From: Deltaproteobacteria bacterium
Lineage (GTDB): Bacteria; Myxococcota_A; Polyangia; JAAYKL01
Reading direction: 5' to 3'
Assembly (NCBI GenBank): GCA_028713995.1
Contig: JAQTNF010000006.1
Location: 1 to 64,000 of the forward strand
Length of the DNA stretch: 64,000 nt
This document shows positions 7,461 through 64,000 of the stretch, in pieces (the stretch's first letter is position 1; every line of letters starts with the position of its first letter). The notes under the pieces are model-generated. The model was not told where the DNA came from. It did no database searches and saw only the letters and a list, made by a program, of their open reading frames with translations. The translations under genes were made by a program, and so were the position numbers.

Positions 7461-9503
7461 ATGACGACACCCAGAAAGATCGGCATCGTTGGCGGCGGAA
7501 CCATGGGCAGCGGCATCGCCCAGAAGGTGGCCCAGTCCGGGCTAAAGGTGGTGCTCATGGACGTCTCGGACGCGCAGGTGCAGGCGGGCCTCAGCCGCAT
7601 CCGCTCCATGCTCGAGGAGGGCGTCAAGCGCAAGGTGTTCGCCGAGGGCGAGCCGGACCGCGTGCTCGCGCGCATCACGGGCACCACCAAGGCCGAGGAT
7701 CTCAAGGACTGCGACCTGGTGCTCGAGGCGGTGTTCGAGGACCTGGGGGTCAAGCGCAAGCTGTTCGCCGAGGTCGAGAAGCACGTGCGGCCGGACGCGG
7801 TGCTGGCCACGAACACGTCGTCGTTCAAGGTCGCGGCCGTGGCCGAGGGCGCCAGGCACCCGCAGCGCTTCGTGGGGCTGCACTACTTCTACCACCCGGC
7901 CAAGAACCGGCTGCTCGAGGTCATCCCGGGCAAGGGCACGGCGCCCGCGCCGCTCGCGTCCGCATGGGCGTTCGCCGAGGCCACGGGCAAGACCCCGATC
8001 CACTCGGCCGACGCGCCCGGTTTCGTGGTCAACCGCTTCTTCGTGCCGTGGCTCAACGAGTCGGTGCGCCTGCTCGAGGAGGGCGTGGCGGATCTGCCCA
8101 CCATCGAGAAGACCTGCAAGGACCTGTTCGGCATCGGCATGGGGCCGTTCGAGCTCATGAACGTGACCGGCGTGCCCATCGCGCAGCACGCGGCCGCGGG
8201 CCTGGCCTCGGAGCTGGGGGCGTTCTACGCGCCGTGCGAGCTTCTGAAGAAACAGGTCGCGAGCAAGAAGAACTGGGATCTCGCGGGCGAAGCCGGGACG
8301 CGCGGCGCCGCGGACGTGGAGAGGCGCCTGCTCGGCGTGGTGCTGCTCGTGGCGGCGCAGCTCGTGGACGAGGGCGTGGCCTCGGCCGAGGACACGGACA
8401 TCGGCGCCAAGGTGGGCCTGCGCTGGCCAATCGGGCCGTTCGCGCTCGCCAACCAGCGCGGGATCGCAGGCGCGGTGGCCGCGGCCGCGCGAGTCGCGGA
8501 CACGTACGGGCTGCCCCTGCCCAGGTCGCTCGCCGAGCGCAAGGAGAAGCCGGTGCCGTTCGCGCTCAAGGCCGTGAACCTGGCGGTTGAGGACGGCATC
8601 GCGCGCATCACCATGAACAGGCCGGACGTCCTGAACGCGCTCGATCCCGACACGGTGGCCGCGCTCGAAACCGCCTTCAACGCGGCGGTGGCCGACGGCA
8701 AGGTCAAGGCCATCGTCATCGAAGGCCGAGGCAAGGCGTTCGTGGCCGGCGCGGACATCAAGTTCTTCGTGCGGGCCATCGACGAGAAGGACATCCCGCG
8801 CATCGTCTCGTTCACGCGCAAGGGCCAGGAGCTCCTGCTCGCCATCGACCGCTGCGACAAGCCCGTGGTGGCGCGCGTCAACGGCATGGCGCTCGGCGGC
8901 GGCGCGGAGCTGGCGCTCTCCTGCGACGCGATCGTGGCCGACGAGTCCGCGGTGCTGGGCTTCCCGGAGACGGGCATCGGCATCTACCCGGGCCTGGGCG
9001 GGACCCAGCGCCTCGTCCATCGCTGCGGCATTGGCGCGGCTCGATACCTCGTCATGTCGGGCGACATCCTGCCCGCGGCCAAGGCGGCGGCCATCGGGCT
9101 CGTCGACGTCGTGGCGCCCGCGGGCACGTCCATGAGCGTGGTGAAGCAGCTCCTCGCCGAGAAGCGCGTCAAGGCCGGGCCCGGTCCCTCGGGGCTCGCG
9201 AAGCCCACGGCCGACAAGGCGAGGTACGAGAAGATCTTCACCGACGCGGGCACAGCCGCGCTCATGGACGGCTCGTTCGCGCCGGCCGACAAGGAAGGGG
9301 AGAAGCTCAAGAAGAAGATCGCGGGCAAGGCCCCCATCGCGCTGCGCATGGCGAACGAACTCATGCAGAAGGCGCTCTCACTCCCGGTCGAGAAGGGGGT
9401 CGAGGAGGAGCTGGCGTCCTTGCCGAGGATCTTCTCCACCGAGGACGCGCGCGCCGGGCTCGGCTCGGTGGGCAAGGGCCGTCCGGAGTTCAAGGGCAGG
9501 TAG
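7461..9503 (+). CDS. 3-hydroxyacyl-CoA dehydrogenase / enoyl-CoA hydratase fusion (HAD domain N-terminal)
   Basis: N-term GIVGGGTMGSGIAQ NAD-binding; C-term GRGKAFVAGADIKFF...NGMALGGGAELALSCD crotonase motif. Confidence 0.92.
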   Translation: MTTPRKIGIVGGGTMGSGIAQKVAQSGLKVVLMDVSDAQVQAGLSRIRSMLEEGVKRKVFAEGEPDRVLARITGTTKAEDLKDCDLVLEAVFEDLGVKRKLFAEVEKHVRPDAVLATNTSSFKVAAVAEGARHPQRFVGLHYFYHPAKNRLLEVIPGKGTAPAPLASAWAFAEATGKTPIHSADAPGFVVNRFFVPWLNESVRLLEEGVADLPTIEKTCKDLFGIGMGPFELMNVTGVPIAQHAAAGLASELGAFYAPCELLKKQVASKKNWDLAGEAGTRGAADVERRLLGVVLLVAAQLVDEGVASAEDTDIGAKVGLRWPIGPFALANQRGIAGAVAAAARVADTYGLPLPRSLAERKEKPVPFALKAVNLAVEDGIARITMNRPDVLNALDPDTVAALETAFNAAVADGKVKAIVIEGRGKAFVAGADIKFFVRAIDEKDIPRIVSFTRKGQELLLAIDRCDKPVVARVNGMALGGGAELALSCDAIVADESAVLGFPETGIGIYPGLGGTQRLVHRCGIGAARYLVMSGDILPAAKAAAIGLVDVVAPAGTSMSVVKQLLAEKRVKAGPGPSGLAKPTADKARYEKIFTDAGTAALMDGSFAPADKEGEKLKKKIAGKAPIALRMANELMQKALSLPVEKGVEEELASLPRIFSTEDARAGLGSVGKGRPEFKGR

Positions 9504-9539
9504 CAACCATCGACACACGGGGAGAGAAACGAGAATCGC

Positions 9540-11129
9540 ATGAGCCGCGACGAGCACGAGATCGAGACCTTCAACGCAGCAGAGTACTTTGTCGACAGGA
9601 ACATCCGCCAGGGCCGAGGCCACAAGACGGCCCTCTACTTCAAGGACCGCAAGTACACCTACAACGACCTGCAGAAGATGGTGAACAAGACGGCCAACGC
9701 GCTCGTGGACCTGGGCCTGCGCATCGAGGATCGCGTGCTGCTCCTGCTCCTCGACACGCCCGAGTTCTTCGCCTGCTTCTGGGGCGCCATCCGCATCGGC
9801 GCGGTGCCCGTGCCGGTCAACACCATGATGACCCCGGACGACTACGAGTACTTCCTGAACGACAGCCGCGCCAAGGTGCTCATGTGCAACGAGGCGCTCC
9901 TGCCGCTCGTGTACCAGATCACGGGCGACCTGCCGTATCTGCGCGACCTCATCGTCATCGAGGAGGGCGGCGGCGCCAAGCAGCCCTTCAAGCAGAAGTA
10001 CCGCCGCGCGCCGAGCGTGAGCAAGTCGGCGCCCACCACGCGCGACGACGTGGGGTTCTGGCTGTACTCCTCGGGCAGCACGGGCTTCCCCAAGGGCGCC
10101 ATCCACTCGCAGTTCGATCCCGTGGTGTGCGCCGAGAACTACGCGCGCGGCGTGCTCGGCATGACCGAGAACGACGTGACGCTCTCCGCGGCGCGGCTCT
10201 TCTTTGCCTACGGGCTCGGCAACTCGAACTTCTTCCCGCTCTCGGTGGGCGCCTCCTCGGTCCTCTACCCGGAGCGGCCCACGCCCGAGCTCATCTACGG
10301 ACTGCTCGCGAAGCACAAGCCGAGCCTCTTCTTCGGCGTGCCCACGCTGTACGCGGCCATGCTCGACCACGCGGCCAAGGAGGACGCGGCGCGTGGACGT
10401 AAGCCCGATCCCAACCGGCCGCACGAGCTTGCGTCCGTGCGCCTGTGCGTCTCGGCCGGCGAGGCCCTGCCGCCCGACGTGTACCACCGTTGGAAGGAGC
10501 GCTACGGCGTGGAGATCATCGACGGCATCGGCTCGACCGAGATGCTGCACATCTTCCTTACGAACCGGCCGGGCGAGGTGGTCACGGGCAGCACGGGCAA
10601 GCCGGTGCCGGGCTACGAGGTGAAGCTCGTCGACGACGCCGGGGTGAAGGTGGCGGACGGCGACATCGGCACGCTGCTCGTCAAGGGCGACAGCGCGGCG
10701 CAGTACTACTGGGGCAAGCGCGAGAAGTCGCGCAAGACCATGCTCGGTGAATGGATCAACACGGGCGACAAGTTCCACATGGACGAGAGGGGCTGCTACT
10801 GGTGCCACGGCCGCGGCGACGACATGCTCAAGGTGGGCGGCATCTGGGTGTCGCCGGTGGAGGTGGAGCGCGCGCTCGTGGAGCACCCGGCCGTGCTCGA
10901 GTGCGCGGTGATCGGCTACCCGGACAAGGACAGCCTCATCAAGCCCAAGGCGTTCGTGGTGCTCTCCGACACGTCCAAGGCCGGCGAAGCGCTGGCCGAG
11001 GAGCTCAAGGAGTTCGTCAGGGACCGGCTCGCCAAGTACAAGTACCCGCGCTGGATCGTGTTCCTCGACGAGCTGCCCAAGACCTCCACGGGCAAGACCC
11101 TGCGCTACAAGCTGCGCGAGCTCGCGTAG
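9540..11129 (+). CDS. Acyl-CoA synthetase, benzoate-CoA ligase family-like
   Basis: FNAAEYFVDRNIRQGRGHKTAL, YSSGSTGFPKGAIHSQ, GIGSTEMLHIFLTNRPG, GRGDDMLKVGGIWVSPVEVE, TSTGKTLRYKLRE. Confidence 0.85.
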   Translation: MSRDEHEIETFNAAEYFVDRNIRQGRGHKTALYFKDRKYTYNDLQKMVNKTANALVDLGLRIEDRVLLLLLDTPEFFACFWGAIRIGAVPVPVNTMMTPDDYEYFLNDSRAKVLMCNEALLPLVYQITGDLPYLRDLIVIEEGGGAKQPFKQKYRRAPSVSKSAPTTRDDVGFWLYSSGSTGFPKGAIHSQFDPVVCAENYARGVLGMTENDVTLSAARLFFAYGLGNSNFFPLSVGASSVLYPERPTPELIYGLLAKHKPSLFFGVPTLYAAMLDHAAKEDAARGRKPDPNRPHELASVRLCVSAGEALPPDVYHRWKERYGVEIIDGIGSTEMLHIFLTNRPGEVVTGSTGKPVPGYEVKLVDDAGVKVADGDIGTLLVKGDSAAQYYWGKREKSRKTMLGEWINTGDKFHMDERGCYWCHGRGDDMLKVGGIWVSPVEVERALVEHPAVLECAVIGYPDKDSLIKPKAFVVLSDTSKAGEALAEELKEFVRDRLAKYKYPRWIVFLDELPKTSTGKTLRYKLRELA

Positions 11130-11287
11130 CTCCGGCGGTGAACCGCCGGGCTGAGGGAACAAAGGGCATTGGGAATGCCCTGCCGGGGGCGATCTGCAGC
11201 CCGCAGGGCTTCGTCCTTTCAGCCAGGACGTTCACGTCCGGGCGCGTATGACCGCGGGCTGTCTGGTGTGGAAACGGGTGGGGAGAA
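11130..11287. other. Intergenic cluster of stem-loops between convergent genes
   Basis: CCGGCGG-TGAA-CCGCCGG (11132-11149); GGGCATT-GGG-AATGCCC (11164-11180); GCCCTGC...GCAGGGC (11177-11209); CGTCCT...AGGACG (11212-11230); GGACGT-TC-ACGTCC (11226-11239). Confidence 0.7.
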
Positions 11288-12481
11288 TCAGCTCTCGCGC
11301 TTGATGACCATGGCCGTGGTCACGCCGCCGCCGCCGCAGATGGAGGCCACGCCGAGCTCCTTGCCGCGCTGCTTGAGCGCGTTGTAGAGCGTGACCACGA
11401 TGCGCGCGCCCGAGATGCCGGTTGGGTGGCCGAGTGCGATGGCGCCGCCGTTGACGTTGAGCTTCGCGAGATCGAGGCCGAGCATCTTCACGTTCACGAG
11501 CGCCTGCACGGCAAACGCCTCGTTGACCTCGTAGAGATCCATGTTCTTGATCGTCATGCCGACCTTCTCGAGCGCCTTGGGGATGGAGATGCCAGGGCCC
11601 TCGCCCATGTAACGCCCGTCCACCGCGGCCTGGGCGTAGGACACGATGCTGAAGAGCGGCGTCGCGCCCGCGGCCTTGGCCCGCTCGCGCGTGGTGAGCA
11701 CGAGCGCGCACGCGCCGTCCGACATGCCGCACGCGTTGCCCGCGGTCACGCGGCCGTCCTTCTTGAAGGCCGCGGGCAGCTTGGCGAGCCGCTCGATCGT
11801 GGTGTCCTTGCGCGGGGTCTCGTCCTTGTCGAACACGACCTCGGGCTTCTTGCCCTTGGCCGGGATGACCACGGGCGTGATCTCGTCCTTGAAGCGGCCC
11901 TCCTCGGCGGCGGCCACGGCCTTCTCATGGCTCGCGAGCGCGAACTCGTCCATCTCCTTGCGCGACACGTCGTGGCGCTCGAGCAGGTTCTCGGCCGTGT
12001 TGCCCATGCCGTAGCCGCAGGTGGGATCGATGGAGTCGGACCAGCCGTCCTCGAGCTTGCGGTCGCCCATCTTGAAGCCCTCGAAGCGGCAGTTCTTGAG
12101 CAGGAACGGGATGGTCGACATGGAGTCCATGCCGCCCGCCATGTAGACCTCTCCGCGGCCGGTCATGATGCCCTCGGCCGAGAACATGATGGACTTCATG
12201 CCCGACGGGCAGGCCATGTTGAGCGTGATGGCCGGCACGTCCACCGGCATGCCGCCAAAGAGCATGGCCGAGCGCGCGGAGTTGGGGCCGTTGCCCGCCT
12301 GGCGGCACGAGCCGTAGATGACCTCGGCGAAGTCGGCGCCCTTGAACGGCGAGCGCTCGAGCGCCGCCTTGATGGCCGCGGCGCCCAGGTGGTAGACCGG
12401 CACGTCCTTGAGCGTGCCGCCGAAGCTGCCCATGGGCGTGCGCACCGCGCTGACCGCCACGATGTCGTTGAGTTTCGTCAT
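11288..12481 (-). CDS. Acetyl-CoA acetyltransferase (thiolase)
   Basis: VRTPMGSFGG, NMACPSGMKSIMF, GHPTGISGARI, CGGGGVTTAMV; catalytic Cys/His/Cys. Confidence 0.92.
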   Translation of the reverse strand: MTKLNDIVAVSAVRTPMGSFGGTLKDVPVYHLGAAAIKAALERSPFKGADFAEVIYGSCRQAGNGPNSARSAMLFGGMPVDVPAITLNMACPSGMKSIMFSAEGIMTGRGEVYMAGGMDSMSTIPFLLKNCRFEGFKMGDRKLEDGWSDSIDPTCGYGMGNTAENLLERHDVSRKEMDEFALASHEKAVAAAEEGRFKDEITPVVIPAKGKKPEVVFDKDETPRKDTTIERLAKLPAAFKKDGRVTAGNACGMSDGACALVLTTRERAKAAGATPLFSIVSYAQAAVDGRYMGEGPGISIPKALEKVGMTIKNMDLYEVNEAFAVQALVNVKMLGLDLAKLNVNGGAIALGHPTGISGARIVVTLYNALKQRGKELGVASICGGGGVTTAMVIKRES

Positions 12482-12583
12482 GATTCGCACCTCGCTGGTT
12501 GCTCGTTGGTGGCGGGACTATAAAACGGAAACGGCCTGCGTTCCAAGGGGCTACGTGCTGCGCCGCCGGGAGAGGGCGGCCTG

Positions 12584-51462: not shown

Positions 51463-52434
51463 CGATTGACATTTCTCCGCAGGCGGCCTAGGAACGCGTC
51501 ATGGCAAGACCACCCCGTACGGATTTCCCGGGAGCCTGGCATCACGTCATGCATCGCGGCCGGCGGCGCGAGAGAATCTTCGAGGACTCCCACGACCTCG
51601 TCGCCTTCTTCGATATCGTCGCGGACACCGTGAGACGCTTCGGCATCGAGGTGCACGCCTACTCGCTCATGCCCAACCACTACCATCTGCTCGTGCGCTC
51701 GCCGCTCGGCAACCTCTCCAGGACCATGCGCCACCTGGACGGCGTCTACACCCAGCGACACAACGTCCGCCATCGCCGCGACGGCGCGCTGTTCCGCGGG
51801 CGCTTCCGCAGCCAGCTCGTGAGGGACGAGACGCGCCTGCCTTATATCGCGGCATACATCCACCTGAACCCGGTGCGCGCCGGGCTCGTGACGCGCGTGG
51901 ATTCCGACCGGGCGTGGACGAGCCACCGGGAGCACATGGGCCGGGACGCGGCGCCGGAATGGCTGAGCACGGCGTTCCTGCGAGAGCGGATCGGGTCCGC
52001 AAGGGCGATTCACGAGCTCGTGCTCGACATGGCGCGCGGGAGGCGCTCGTGGCCCGAAGGGATGGATCTCGGGACAGGGTGGATGGAACGCGGCGACGAC
52101 GGGGAAGGTGGGACGATCCTGCAACGGACGCGCTCCGTTCAAGCGTCGGAGCTGCTGAAGGAGATCTGCGAGATCGCGGGCGTCGGCCGGGCCCGTCTAT
52201 CGGCTCGGGTCCGAGGGCCGAAGGGCAATCCCGAACGCCGGTTCGCGGTGTGGGCGCTCGCGCGGTCGACGGACCTGACGCAGGCGGCGATCGGGAGGCT
52301 GCTCGGGATGAGCGCGATGCACGTGGCCCAGGATCTGCGGCGGATGCGCGGTGGGTGGGAGCCCATGGACGGATGGCGGGCCGCGTGGGAGGAGCGCCAC
52401 CCCGCGGTAATGTCAAGTGTCAAGGTTTGACCCC
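51448..52434 (+). mobile_element. RAYT-encoding element bounded by 26-bp inverted repeats
   Basis: GGGGTCAAACCTTGACGATTGACATT (51448-51473) and the complement of GGGGTCAAACCTTGACACTTGACATT (52409-52434): 24/26 matches. Confidence 0.85.
51501..52430 (+). CDS. REP-associated tyrosine transposase (Y1/HUH, TnpA_REP)
   Basis: GAWHHVMHRGRRRERIFED; YSLMPNHYHLLVRSPLGNLSRTMRHL; GALFRGRFRSQLV; YIHLNPVRAGLV. Confidence 0.93.
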   Translation: MARPPRTDFPGAWHHVMHRGRRRERIFEDSHDLVAFFDIVADTVRRFGIEVHAYSLMPNHYHLLVRSPLGNLSRTMRHLDGVYTQRHNVRHRRDGALFRGRFRSQLVRDETRLPYIAAYIHLNPVRAGLVTRVDSDRAWTSHREHMGRDAAPEWLSTAFLRERIGSARAIHELVLDMARGRRSWPEGMDLGTGWMERGDDGEGGTILQRTRSVQASELLKEICEIAGVGRARLSARVRGPKGNPERRFAVWALARSTDLTQAAIGRLLGMSAMHVAQDLRRMRGGWEPMDGWRAAWEERHPAVMSSVKV

Positions 52435-59096: not shown

Positions 59097-59732
59097 ATGA
59101 CATGTGAGCGCGAGGTCGTCGTGTTCGTCGCCGCAGCGGCGGCGGCCTATCTCGTGGGCTCCGTGAACTTCGCGGTGATCGCGGGGAGACTCGCGGGCGC
59201 GGGCGATCCGCGCGGCGCGGGCAGCGGCAACGCGGGCGCCAACAACCTTCTGCGCACGGCCGGCTGGCGCGTGGCCCTTCTTGTCCTTGCGCTCGATTTC
59301 GCGAGGGCCGCCGGAGTGGTCCTGGGAGCGCGCTTCGTCGGGCCGGAAGAGCTTGCGTCCCTCGTCGTTTTGCCCCTGCTGCTCGGCAACCTGTACCCGT
59401 GCTTCCACGGCTTTCGCGGCGGCAAGGGTGTGGCGGCCGTGACGGGCGCGTTCCTGGCCGTGGATCCGATCATCCCGCTGCTCGCGGGTCCCGTGTTCCT
59501 GGCCGTGGTGGGCCTCTTCCGCAGGGTGTCGGCCGGCTCCATGCTCATGATCTGTTCCTACCCCGCGCTCGCCTTCCTGCTCGGCGCGCCCTCGGACACG
59601 GTCGCCGTGGCCGGCACGTGCGCCCTCGCGATCCTGTTCACCCACAGGGCCAACATCCGGCGGCTCGCGCGCGGCGAGGAGCCGAGGATCTCCGTGGGCA
59701 ACACGCGATCCGCAAACAAGGAAGGAGCATGA
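59097..59732 (+). CDS. plsY: Glycerol-3-phosphate acyltransferase PlsY (acyl-phosphate dependent)
   Basis: GSGNAGANNLLRTAGW, FHGFRGGKGVAAVTGAF, FRRVSAGSM, THRANIRRLARGEEPRI. Confidence 0.92.
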   Translation: MTCEREVVVFVAAAAAAYLVGSVNFAVIAGRLAGAGDPRGAGSGNAGANNLLRTAGWRVALLVLALDFARAAGVVLGARFVGPEELASLVVLPLLLGNLYPCFHGFRGGKGVAAVTGAFLAVDPIIPLLAGPVFLAVVGLFRRVSAGSMLMICSYPALAFLLGAPSDTVAVAGTCALAILFTHRANIRRLARGEEPRISVGNTRSANKEGA

Positions 59733-61540
59733 ACCGCCTGCTCGACGCGGCCTTCCTGGCCGGCGCGGCCGATCTCATGCGGCGGGCACCGCTCCTCGAC
59801 CGCATCAACGTGTTCCCGGTGGTGGACGCGGACACCGGCCGCAACATGGCCGCCACCGTGTCGAAGGCGGCGCGCCTGCTCGAGGAACCGGGCGCCACAG
59901 CCCGCGACCTCAGCCGCGTTTTGCTCCTTTCGGCCAAGGGCAACTCGGGCGTGATCCTGTCCCAGTTCCTGCTCGGGTTCTTCGACGCGCTCGGCGACCC
60001 TTCGCGCCTCACGCCCGCGACAGTCCGGGACGGCGTCGCGCGAGGACGCGACCTGGCCTATAAGGCCGTGGCCGAGCCGCGGGAAGGCACCATCCTCACG
60101 GTCATGACCGATCTCGCGCGCATCCTCGGGGAGCTCGACGGCGTGCCGGATATCGGGTCCCACGCGGAGCTGGAGCGACGGCTCGCCGCGTCCGTGGCCG
60201 CCACCCCGGCCCTGCTCCCCAGGCTCGCGGCCGCGGGCGTGGTGGACTCGGGCGCGCTCGGCTTCCACGTGCTCGCCTGCGGGCTCATGCTTGTTCTGCC
60301 GGGCCTGCGCGCTCCGGAAGCGGCGCTCGCGCGCATGGAGCGCCGCCGTCTGGGCGAGGACCAGGCTCCTCTCGGGCGGATTGCGGAGCGCATCGATCCG
60401 GCTTTCATCACGGACGAGGGAACAGAGGCGTCTGTGGCGCGCTTCTGCATGGATCTGGTGATCGAAACGGACGGTGAAGCCTTCGACGACTGGCGCGCGG
60501 CCTTCGACGGGATCGGAGCGTCGCTCGACGCCGTGCGGCTCGAACGGCTCCTCAAGCTGCACGTGCACTGTGACGATCCCGAGGCCGTACGCCGCGTCGC
60601 CGCGAACCTCGGGCAGGTGATCGAGTCGTCCGCGGAGGATATGGCCGAGGGGCTCCGGCGCGCCTCTTGCGAGAGCGCCGGGGACGACCTCGCGTACGCG
60701 CGTCTGCGGGTGGCGGGCGACTCGTCCATGTCGCTGCCGCGGGACGTTGCGACGAGCCTCGGCGTGCCGCGACTCGAGAACTCCGTGAGCGCCCACGGCG
60801 AGATGGTGCGCGACTGCGACCTCGACATGGGCCTCGTCTTCTCTCGCATGCGCGAGGGACACGTCTACAAGACGGCGCAGGCGTCCCAGGCCGAGGCGCG
60901 CGCCTTCCTCGACGCGCAGCTCTCGGCCTGCGGGCACCTCGTGTACCTGGCCGTGGGACGGGCCTACACCGGCACCCAGGAGCTCGTGCGCCGCGCCGCG
61001 GCCGACCACAAGGAGCGCAACCGGATCACCATCCTCGACACGCGCGCCGCGTCCGGGCAGCAGGGCATCGCGGTGCTCGCCACGGCCCGCTTCGCCGCCC
61101 GGGCCAGCGACGTCGACGACCTCGTGGCCTATGCCGAACGCCAGATCGCCTCGGCGCGCGAGTACCTGGTCATCGACTCGCTCGGGCACCTCAAGCGCGG
61201 CGGACGCATCGGCCGCGTCAAGGCGGCCCTGGCCGGCGCGCTCTCGATCCGGCCCATCGTGGGACACGGAGGCGACGGCGCGATCACCTACGCCAAGGCG
61301 CGCTCTCACGAGGCCGCGCTCGACGAGGTGGCGAGGCGCGTGGCGTCCCACTTGGGTGATGGCCCCCTGCTCGTCATGGTCGAATACACGGACAACGCCG
61401 AGTGGGCCGAGACCGTGCGCGAGCGCCTCGCCTCCGTCCTCCCGGCCGGGACCGAGATCATCCTTTCGCCGCTCTCGGCCACGGCTGCGGTGCACATGGG
61501 GCCCGGCACGTGGGGCGTGGCCGTCACGCGGCCGGAGTGA
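59729..61540 (+). CDS. DAK2-DegV fusion (FakA-FakB-like fatty acid kinase)
   Basis: N-term RINVFPVVDADTGRNMAATV, LLSAKGNSGVILSQF, GVVDSGALGFHVL; middle LLKLHVHCDDPEAV; C-term DegV YLAVGRAYTGTQELV, EYLVIDSLGHLKRGGRIGRVKAALAGALSIRPI; ATGA overlap with plsY. Confidence 0.9.
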   Translation: MNRLLDAAFLAGAADLMRRAPLLDRINVFPVVDADTGRNMAATVSKAARLLEEPGATARDLSRVLLLSAKGNSGVILSQFLLGFFDALGDPSRLTPATVRDGVARGRDLAYKAVAEPREGTILTVMTDLARILGELDGVPDIGSHAELERRLAASVAATPALLPRLAAAGVVDSGALGFHVLACGLMLVLPGLRAPEAALARMERRRLGEDQAPLGRIAERIDPAFITDEGTEASVARFCMDLVIETDGEAFDDWRAAFDGIGASLDAVRLERLLKLHVHCDDPEAVRRVAANLGQVIESSAEDMAEGLRRASCESAGDDLAYARLRVAGDSSMSLPRDVATSLGVPRLENSVSAHGEMVRDCDLDMGLVFSRMREGHVYKTAQASQAEARAFLDAQLSACGHLVYLAVGRAYTGTQELVRRAAADHKERNRITILDTRAASGQQGIAVLATARFAARASDVDDLVAYAERQIASAREYLVIDSLGHLKRGGRIGRVKAALAGALSIRPIVGHGGDGAITYAKARSHEAALDEVARRVASHLGDGPLLVMVEYTDNAEWAETVRERLASVLPAGTEIILSPLSATAAVHMGPGTWGVAVTRPE

Positions 61541-62726: not shown

Positions 62727-64000
62727 TCAAAGTCCGAGGGCGCCGGCGAGGAGCCCGAAGAGGTTCGAGGAAGCCTTTTCGCGGCCGGGCGTGCTGCAAC
62801 CGCAGCCGCTCGTGTCCTTGTCCGAGCCCGCGTCCGAGCCCGCGTCCGCGGCCGAGTCGGTGTCGATCCCGCCGTCGCCTTCTCCCAAGGTCGTGACGCC
62901 GTCGCCCGTGGCGAGCGGACCGCCGACGGACGCCTTCACCCCGCTCAGGTTGCCGCGGCCGTCGCCCAGGTTGACCGGCATGAGGTAGTACGTGCCAACG
63001 GGCAGGAAAGCCCCGCCCGGGGCGACCAGGCTGAAGACCGCCGGGGCCGTGCCCTCGAGCGTGGCCGGGCCGATCACGTCGTCCGCGGTCGTCACGCCGT
63101 CGCCCTGGTAATCGAAGGTGATGGGGTTGTCGCGCCGCACGAGGACGCGCATGTCCGGCTCGGCGGTCGTCCCGGTCAGCGAGGAGCCGCTCGCGGAAAC
63201 GGTCATCGACAGGTTGACGGCCTTCACGCCCTCTCCCACCGTGACCATGTACTGGATGATGCCCGGCGTGTAGGGCGAGCCCTTGGCGCCGTTGACCGCC
63301 TCGGGCGCGGCGATGGGAGTGGCCTTCTCGACCGTACCGGTGCCGTTGTCGCTCATGACGCGCGCGCAGTCGTCGGTCTTGTGCGCGGCGAAGACCTCGG
63401 CCGCCGCGTCCTTGGCCGCCGTGCCGAGCAGATCCTCGGTCGCGATCAGGGTGGCGGCCGCGGCCTGCGCGAAGCCCTGCTTCTGCACCACGGACGATGC
63501 GCCCACGAAAGCCGCCTGCTCGAACTTGTGCTTCTTCGCCTCGTCGTCGCCGGCCGCGGCCTCACGCGCCTCGTAGACCGACTGGCTCCAGCCCGGGGAG
63601 TCGGCGTGCACCTCGCCTTGCAGGTAATCCGGGCACACGTCGTCGCCGTCCATGTGGCGCACCGCGGAGGCGCCCATCCCGGCCAGCGAGTACTCGCCCA
63701 TGGTGGGCTCGTTCGTGAGGAAGCCCGCGTAGATGTCGGCGTAGCCCTCGCTCATGCCGCCCAGCTCGACGTTCACGCCCCACTCGTCGCCGAACTCCTG
63801 GTACTGCCCGATGCCGGCCGAGGCGGTGCTCATGACCGAGTGCGTGAACTCGTGGTAAATGACGTCCCCGTCCCACGCGAAGTCCGCGAGCGAGCCCTGG
63901 CCGAACATGATCGAGTCGTAGTTGCGGCTGAAGCCCGGGATGCCGGTCGGGCCGGCCGGCATGAACATGGCGTTGTCGAACGGGTAGAGCGGGCCGTTGG
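62727..64000 (-). CDS. Secreted zincin metalloprotease with Cys-Gly-Cys C-terminal anchor-like tail; N-terminus beyond window
   Basis: VIYHEFTHSVMS (HExxH), ELGGMSEGYADIYAGFL; C-term DAGSDAGSDKDTSGCGCSTPGREKASSNLFGLLAGALGL; frame open to window end. Confidence 0.85.
   Translation of the reverse strand, partial: NGPLYPFDNAMFMPAGPTGIPGFSRNYDSIMFGQGSLADFAWDGDVIYHEFTHSVMSTASAGIGQYQEFGDEWGVNVELGGMSEGYADIYAGFLTNEPTMGEYSLAGMGASAVRHMDGDDVCPDYLQGEVHADSPGWSQSVYEAREAAAGDDEAKKHKFEQAAFVGASSVVQKQGFAQAAAATLIATEDLLGTAAKDAAAEVFAAHKTDDCARVMSDNGTGTVEKATPIAAPEAVNGAKGSPYTPGIIQYMVTVGEGVKAVNLSMTVSASGSSLTGTTAEPDMRVLVRRDNPITFDYQGDGVTTADDVIGPATLEGTAPAVFSLVAPGGAFLPVGTYYLMPVNLGDGRGNLSGVKASVGGPLATGDGVTTLGEGDGGIDTDSAADAGSDAGSDKDTSGCGCSTPGREKASSNLFGLLAGALGL

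Follow-up and report, generated by a model that had tools for sequence, protein, structure and literature searches.

The plsY gene in the 64,000-nt stretch of DNA analyzed here (the window) overlaps a downstream gene that encodes FakA_N and FakA_L domains joined to a DegV/FakB carrier domain in one polypeptide. Judged on its sequence, this fusion is probably a tethered, single-chain fatty acid kinase that feeds acyl-phosphate to PlsY. The pair occurs in a family of genomes from which plsX is absent, in a host that also encodes PlsB.

The plsY-fusion gene pair

The plsY gene (59097 to 59732, + strand; ATG at 59097, TGA at 59730 to 59732) encodes an acyl-phosphate:glycerol-3-phosphate acyltransferase of 211 residues. 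The protein matched PF02660 across the whole model (positions 1 to 164 of 164; E value, 1e-38) and matched TIGR00023 with an E value of 3.3e-35, under that model's curated cutoff, and the PlsY motifs GSGNAGANNLLR, HGFRGGKGVA, and THRAN were read in its sequence. The fusion gene (59729 to 61540, + strand; ATG at 59729, TGA at 61538 to 61540) encodes 603 residues and was assigned from its Pfam domains and from homologues in 20 other genomes. The overlap of the two genes described in the initial annotation proved exact, with the fusion ATG and the plsY TGA sharing the letters ATGA in a 4-nt overlap (+2). A purine-rich stretch resembling a Shine-Dalgarno sequence, AAGGAAGGAG (59718 to 59727, + strand; read directly), lies within the 3' end of plsY ahead of the fusion ATG. 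An Rfam scan of the 64-kb window gave no match. Elsewhere in the window, a protein with an IS200-like (Y1) transposase domain, possibly of the REP-associated type, is encoded at 51501 to 52430 (+ strand). A weakly M36 peptidase-like protein (match below the cutoff) with a Cys-rich tail of the CGCSTPG type is encoded at 62727 to 63968 (− strand); the tail is reminiscent of MYXO-CTERM sorting signals.

The initial annotation had tied the fusion to plsY, and the two genes do co-occur. The fusion was present in 7 of the 14 genomes of the window's family, representing five genera, and lay directly downstream of plsY in all seven. The genes overlapped by 4 nt in five of these genomes and were separated by gaps of 6 and 7 nt in the other two, while the remaining neighbors of the pair differed between genera. 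When 379 genomes from the phylum and 318 from the class were searched, fusions were recovered from 21 genomes in total, 14 of them outside the family, which ruled out an assembly chimera. The domain order common to 14 members and the synteny of the pair in seven genomes of five genera likewise argue that the fusion arose neither by chance nor as a chimera. Two further genomes (G088 and G468) gave matches to the FakA half only, and the G088 protein was read as a canonical FakA. One scan of genome contigs with the fusion as the query returned canonical FakAs and one DegV-type match and no fusion.

Domains, conserved residues, and predicted fold

Three Pfam domains were identified in the fusion, each exceeding its curated cutoff, and their order was the same in all 14 fusion members scanned. 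The ATP-binding Dak2 (FakA_N) domain spans residues 30 to 185 (59816 to 60283, + strand; 5.8e-24) and was supported by alignments and by the published ligand list (PMC9136124). It is followed by the catalytic and dimerization domain, FakA-like_M or FakA_L, at residues 238 to 308 (60440 to 60652, + strand; 5.1e-10), and by a DegV/FakB fatty acid-binding domain at residues 328 to 599 (60710 to 61525, + strand; 1.7e-44), the latter also supported by PDB matches and invariant columns. The initial annotation had described FakA-like L and M domains fused to DegV/FakB. The fusion of FakA parts to a true DegV/FakB domain held, but the naming did not, as the parts are FakA_N (Dak2, DhaL-like) and FakA_L (which Pfam calls FakA-like_M).

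The Pfam scan gave no match to the FakA C-terminal domain in the fusion, and neither NF038248 nor TIGR03599 gave a full-length FakA or YloV match above its cutoff that included FakA_C. The FakA equivalog model NF038248 scored 122 bits against a cutoff of 975 and matched the N-terminal half only. TIGR03599 (YloV, DAK2 domain fusion protein) matched residues 7 to 310 with an E value of 2.9e-58 and 198 bits against a cutoff of 396. The DegV models scored well above their cutoffs, at 152.7 bits against 27 for PF02645 and 160.9 against 99.7 for TIGR00762.

In SaFakA, the ligand contacts are Asn32, Asp38, Asp40 (Mg), Thr41, Asn82 (phosphates), and Asp185 (ribose), and the FakA_L triad consists of Cys240, His282, and His284 (PMC9136124). 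The counterparts in the fusion are N27, D33, D35, T36, N72, and D173 for the ligands and C240, H278, and H280 for the triad, all of them invariant in 14 fusions. The motif N27..D33-x-D35-T36 overlaps the start of the Dak2 domain, and N72 and D173 correspond to Asn82 and Asp185 of SaFakA. Alignment with five canonical FakAs gave matching residues at the ligand and triad positions, except that the Cys is missing from the Chloroflexota protein, one of the five, in this alignment. Invariant positions of the DegV half were T382, S386, T414-G415-T, G492-R493, and H589-x-G-P-G, and Q384 was conserved in at least 90% of sequences. The invariant R493 lies in a GGRI motif, to which the same motif aligned in 2dt8 and in the FakB of 7w7h, and by position it should be the counterpart of the catalytic Arg173 of SaFakB1, a residue required for kinase turnover. 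At the position that we take to be that of Ser93 in SaFakB, all fusions carry Thr414, which counts against a tethered kinase. Overall, the Dak2 nucleotide and Mg ligands and the DegV pocket motifs, whose loss the initial annotation had regarded as fatal to its interpretation, were all retained.

An AlphaFold2 model of the fusion, built from 14 sequences, had a pLDDT of 83.5 and a pTM of 0.53, a value at which the relative arrangement of the domains is not fixed. The pLDDT fell below 50 in two predicted linkers, at residues 224 to 235 and 312 to 320, the latter being the flexible linker between FakA_L and the FakB domain (60662 to 60688, + strand). The top Foldseek match of the model was Streptococcus suis FakA from the FakA-FakB2 complex. 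The N-terminal domain superposed on SaFakA_N with TM scores of 0.80 to 0.82, and the FakA half shares 34% identity with the Staphylococcus aureus FakA_N structures. The C-terminal domain superposed on FakB/DegV structures solved with fatty acid with TM scores of 0.80 to 0.88 (target normalized). A profile of canonical FakA_C gave no alignment to the C-terminal domain of the fusion, whereas PDB FakBs matched it, down to 1e-28; these results indicate that this domain is the carrier and not FakA_C. The proposal that the carrier has replaced the FakA C-terminal domain was therefore upheld, with a DegV/FakB domain in the place of FakA_C. Since the solved FakA_C has a FakB-like fold (PMC9136124), the exchange keeps the fold class, fold for fold, between domains whose sequence profiles cannot be aligned.

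Lipid genes of the host and contexts of other fusions

The sole DegV, the sole Dak2, and the sole PlsY of the host genome all reside in the plsY-fusion pair, and supply of FakB in trans was ruled out because there is no second DegV. The initial annotation had raised the question of whether plsX is present elsewhere. A PlsX profile search found none in the host genome or in any of the 14 family genomes, and a joined query containing Escherichia coli PlsX gave no PlsX among the matches listed for the host genome (down to 1.6e-28). In three family genomes (G000, G001, and G004) the gene order is YceD-rpmF-fabH-fabD-acpP-fabF, with 20 to 90 nt from rpmF to fabH and no plsX, whereas four PlsX-bearing relatives have YceD-rpmF-plsX followed by fabH and/or fabD. 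The contiguous rpmF-fabH junction indicates that PlsX has been lost from this slot in the three genomes and was not simply missed, and it ruled out a gap in the assembly as the cause in each of them. Otherwise canonical fab clusters with no plsX separating rpmF from fabH were seen at L092 (2399 to 6526), L096 (1475 to 5482), and L097 (3457 to 7640). A coupling of PlsX loss to fusion gain was unsupported, as PlsX is missing from all 14 members with or without the fusion.

PlsY was encoded in 13 of the 14 family genomes; six have plsY and no fusion, and one has neither. PlsY without PlsX, DegV, or Dak2 was seen in G003, G004, G006, G008, G011, and G013 (L051 to L056), and likewise in two 100%-complete genomes, G033 (PlsY locus L041) and G041. 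In the six family members with plsY and neither PlsX nor the fusion, PlsY must use another donor or stand idle, which weakens the case that the fusion keeps PlsY working. In a PlsY tree, built to examine co-inheritance with the fusion, the fusion-linked and fusion-free proteins may be two sides of one branch, with weak support (78/69). Directly upstream of plsY, four fusion-free members encode a protein of about 200 residues (L052, 7228 to 7854, − strand, with homologues in G003, G011, and G013) that had no Pfam or NCBIfam match.

The host genome also contains FASII genes and genes for AMP-binding (AMP-forming) acyl ligases. PlsB is represented by an ORF of 861 residues (G000:C8) that matched the NCBIfam PlsB model with an E value of 2.2e-102, below the equivalog cutoff, and GPAT_C with 8e-47; with PlsB present, the fusion route is not the sole start of phospholipid synthesis. 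The genome carries lpxC and a weaker LpxA-type match, which together indicate lipid A synthesis. Within the window, genes of fatty acid degradation lie at 7461 to 12490, about 48 kb upstream of plsY, and encode a 3-hydroxyacyl-CoA dehydrogenase/enoyl-CoA hydratase, an AMP-binding acyl ligase (9540 to 11129), and a thiolase (11288 to 12490, − strand).

Outside the family, the gene contexts are of another kind. In 13 of the 14 cases, the gene immediately before the fusion encodes a 4HBT thioesterase, and in 8 of these 13 an aromatic amino acid lyase gene comes before the thioesterase; no thioesterase gene lies beside the window's own copy. Such a thioesterase is a likely source of free acid. Many of these fusions have ketosynthases, PlsC- or LpxL-type acyltransferases, an acyl carrier protein (ACP), and FabG/FabZ homologues nearby. 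Lyase, thioesterase, and fusion genes in a row, together with ketosynthase, ketoreductase, and acyltransferase genes, were seen at L087 (1 to 5701), L089 (3398 to 9864), L114 to L116, and L119 (1545 to 8535). Such clusters resemble the aryl-polyene type, with a putative built-in acyl kinase. This context suggests that some fusions act on a substrate other than a common membrane fatty acid, and the thioesterase-kinase gene pair suggests acyl-phosphate chemistry within pigment-like pathways. In G424 and G425, which belong to one family, plsY and the thioesterase gene are divergent, with about 1.5 kb between them. The thioesterase-fusion pair with divergent plsY, at L117 (5013 to 9441) and L118 (4066 to 8545), connects the two types of context. 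In G026 and G042, plsY is on the fusion contig at a distance of 17 to 20 kb.

A tree of full-length fusions separated the plsY-overlapping from the thioesterase-linked proteins (100/100). In a tree of the FakA_N-L region, a branch supported at 97/92 separated all of the fusions tested from five canonical FakAs, a small sample, and this topology would fit a single fusion event.

Proposed function and relation to known systems

We propose that the C-terminal FakB domain binds a free fatty acid, which may come from outside the cell, from lipid turnover, or from release by a thioesterase, and that the Dak2 domain and the Cys-His-His triad of FakA_L would phosphorylate its carboxylate with ATP. The acyl-phosphate would be passed to PlsY, the product of the overlapping gene, which would acylate glycerol-3-phosphate to lysophosphatidic acid. 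Thanks to the flexible linkers, the FakB domain may be able to move from the kinase site to the membrane and back, with transfer occurring within one chain or between the chains of a FakA_L dimer, and tethering of the carrier would make docking of FakB by FakA_C unnecessary. On its own, FakA_NL is catalytically active, and its Km for FakB is 11-fold higher (0.99 versus 0.09 µM) (PMC9136124). As FakA_NL is active without FakA_C, a FakB domain tethered to it should suffice. With no PlsX, the acyl-phosphate could not be returned to acyl-ACP and would be committed to PlsY. The lipid route put forward in the initial annotation gains partial support from the domains, the residues, the plsY coupling, and the absence of plsX; a physical channel from the kinase to PlsY would be a further, hypothetical feature. 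With PlsB and AMP-forming acyl ligases also encoded, the route is better described as a parallel one than as the only one.

How much this route contributes is a separate matter. It might serve minor salvage or recycling of fatty acids, exogenous or from turnover, beside a main pathway driven by PlsB and with no replacement of PlsX, a possibility to which we assign somewhat less than an even chance and which differs from our proposal in physiological weight alone. The presence of PlsB and FASII genes and the lack of the fusion in half of the family speak for such a role, whereas the family-wide loss of plsX, the retention of plsY in nearly all members, and the translational coupling suggest more than an accessory. 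Alternatively, the fusion may act not on common fatty acids but on a specialized acid (an aryl-polyenoic, a cinnamic/coumaric, or another polyketide-like one), the plsY-coupled copies being a branch of such kinases. The lyase and thioesterase genes before the fusion in eight genomes, and the ketosynthase, ketoreductase, ACP, or acyltransferase genes near most, speak for this reading. We nevertheless consider it unlikely, as the window's branch is a separate, well-supported, plsY-coupled clade without lyase, thioesterase, or ketosynthases, and the DegV/FakB structures have ordinary long-chain acids bound.

A nonlipid kinase acting on dihydroxyacetone or another small molecule could be imagined because Dak2 is common to the DhaL of dihydroxyacetone kinase. 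This is very improbable, since the fusion has no DhaK domain, its top matches are FakA/YloV, and it combines the FakA_L triad with a fatty acid-type DegV domain and a plsY partner; a Dak2 protein whose first half looks DhaK-like by eye (G051, L065) is encoded by a separate gene. We see equally little chance that the fusion is catalytically dead and regulatory. In S. aureus, Fak also influences the regulation of virulence genes (PMC5539427), but the catalytic ligands are invariant across the 14 fusions, which represent at least seven families. A tethered kinase supplying PlsY is thus the interpretation that we favor. A wider proposal is more tentative and less likely than not: that in several diderm lineages PlsY could draw on acyl-phosphate that a one-protein fatty acid kinase forms from free acid, and not on the product of PlsX from acyl-ACP, as its working donor, and that the same kinase might have been recruited to thioesterase/aromatic-lyase/ketosynthase clusters, activating specialized acyl chains for PlsC- or LpxL-type acyltransferases.

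Fatty acid kinase chemistry is known from Gram-positive bacteria, and the single-chain fusion is a variant of it. We found no description of a FakA-FakB or DAK2-DegV fusion in the open-access literature, subscription journals being outside the scope of the search. FakAB has been reviewed as a Gram-positive strategy, with Gram-negative bacteria using acyl-CoA or acyl-ACP synthetases (PMC10146087). A plsY-coupled single-chain FakAB in a PlsX-less, PlsB-bearing family of the lipid A type would break that division and provide a natural case of PlsY supplied without PlsX. As a tool, the one-chain enzyme should make the assembly of FakB, FakA_N, and FakA_L at the active site easier to trap structurally.

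With FakA/FakB1/FakB2 of S. aureus and FakA-FakB2 of S. suis (PDB 7w7h), the fusion shares the Dak2 ATP site, the FakA_L triad, the DegV carrier, and a predicted product destined for PlsY. It differs from the Bacillota proteins in being one polypeptide without FakA_C, in a genome that has no separate FakB, and its host carries lipid A genes (lpxC and an lpxA-like gene) and PlsB and lacks PlsX for reverse transfer to ACP. The N-terminal half of the fusion aligns with YloV (TIGR03599), but the C-terminal half of that model is unmatched. The nearest stand-alone DegV/FakB proteins (TM841, Thermus thermophilus DegV, and SaFakB1) share 22 to 27% identity with the carrier domain, with TM scores of 0.84 to 0.88, and differ in that the carrier of the fusion is covalently joined to its kinase. 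Classical FakA, in which the FakB-like C-terminal domain no longer binds fatty acid, may also have descended from a protein resembling the fusion. The closest functional parallel is the bypass of PlsX in Bacillota (Streptococcus, Enterococcus, and S. aureus suppressors), in which free acid released by a thioesterase is converted by Fak to acyl-phosphate for PlsY (PMC13245860), and the thioesterase genes directly before the fusion in 13 relatives extend the likeness. In that bypass, however, the proteins are separate and act as a suppressor or backup, whereas here the linkage is the wild-type gene arrangement.
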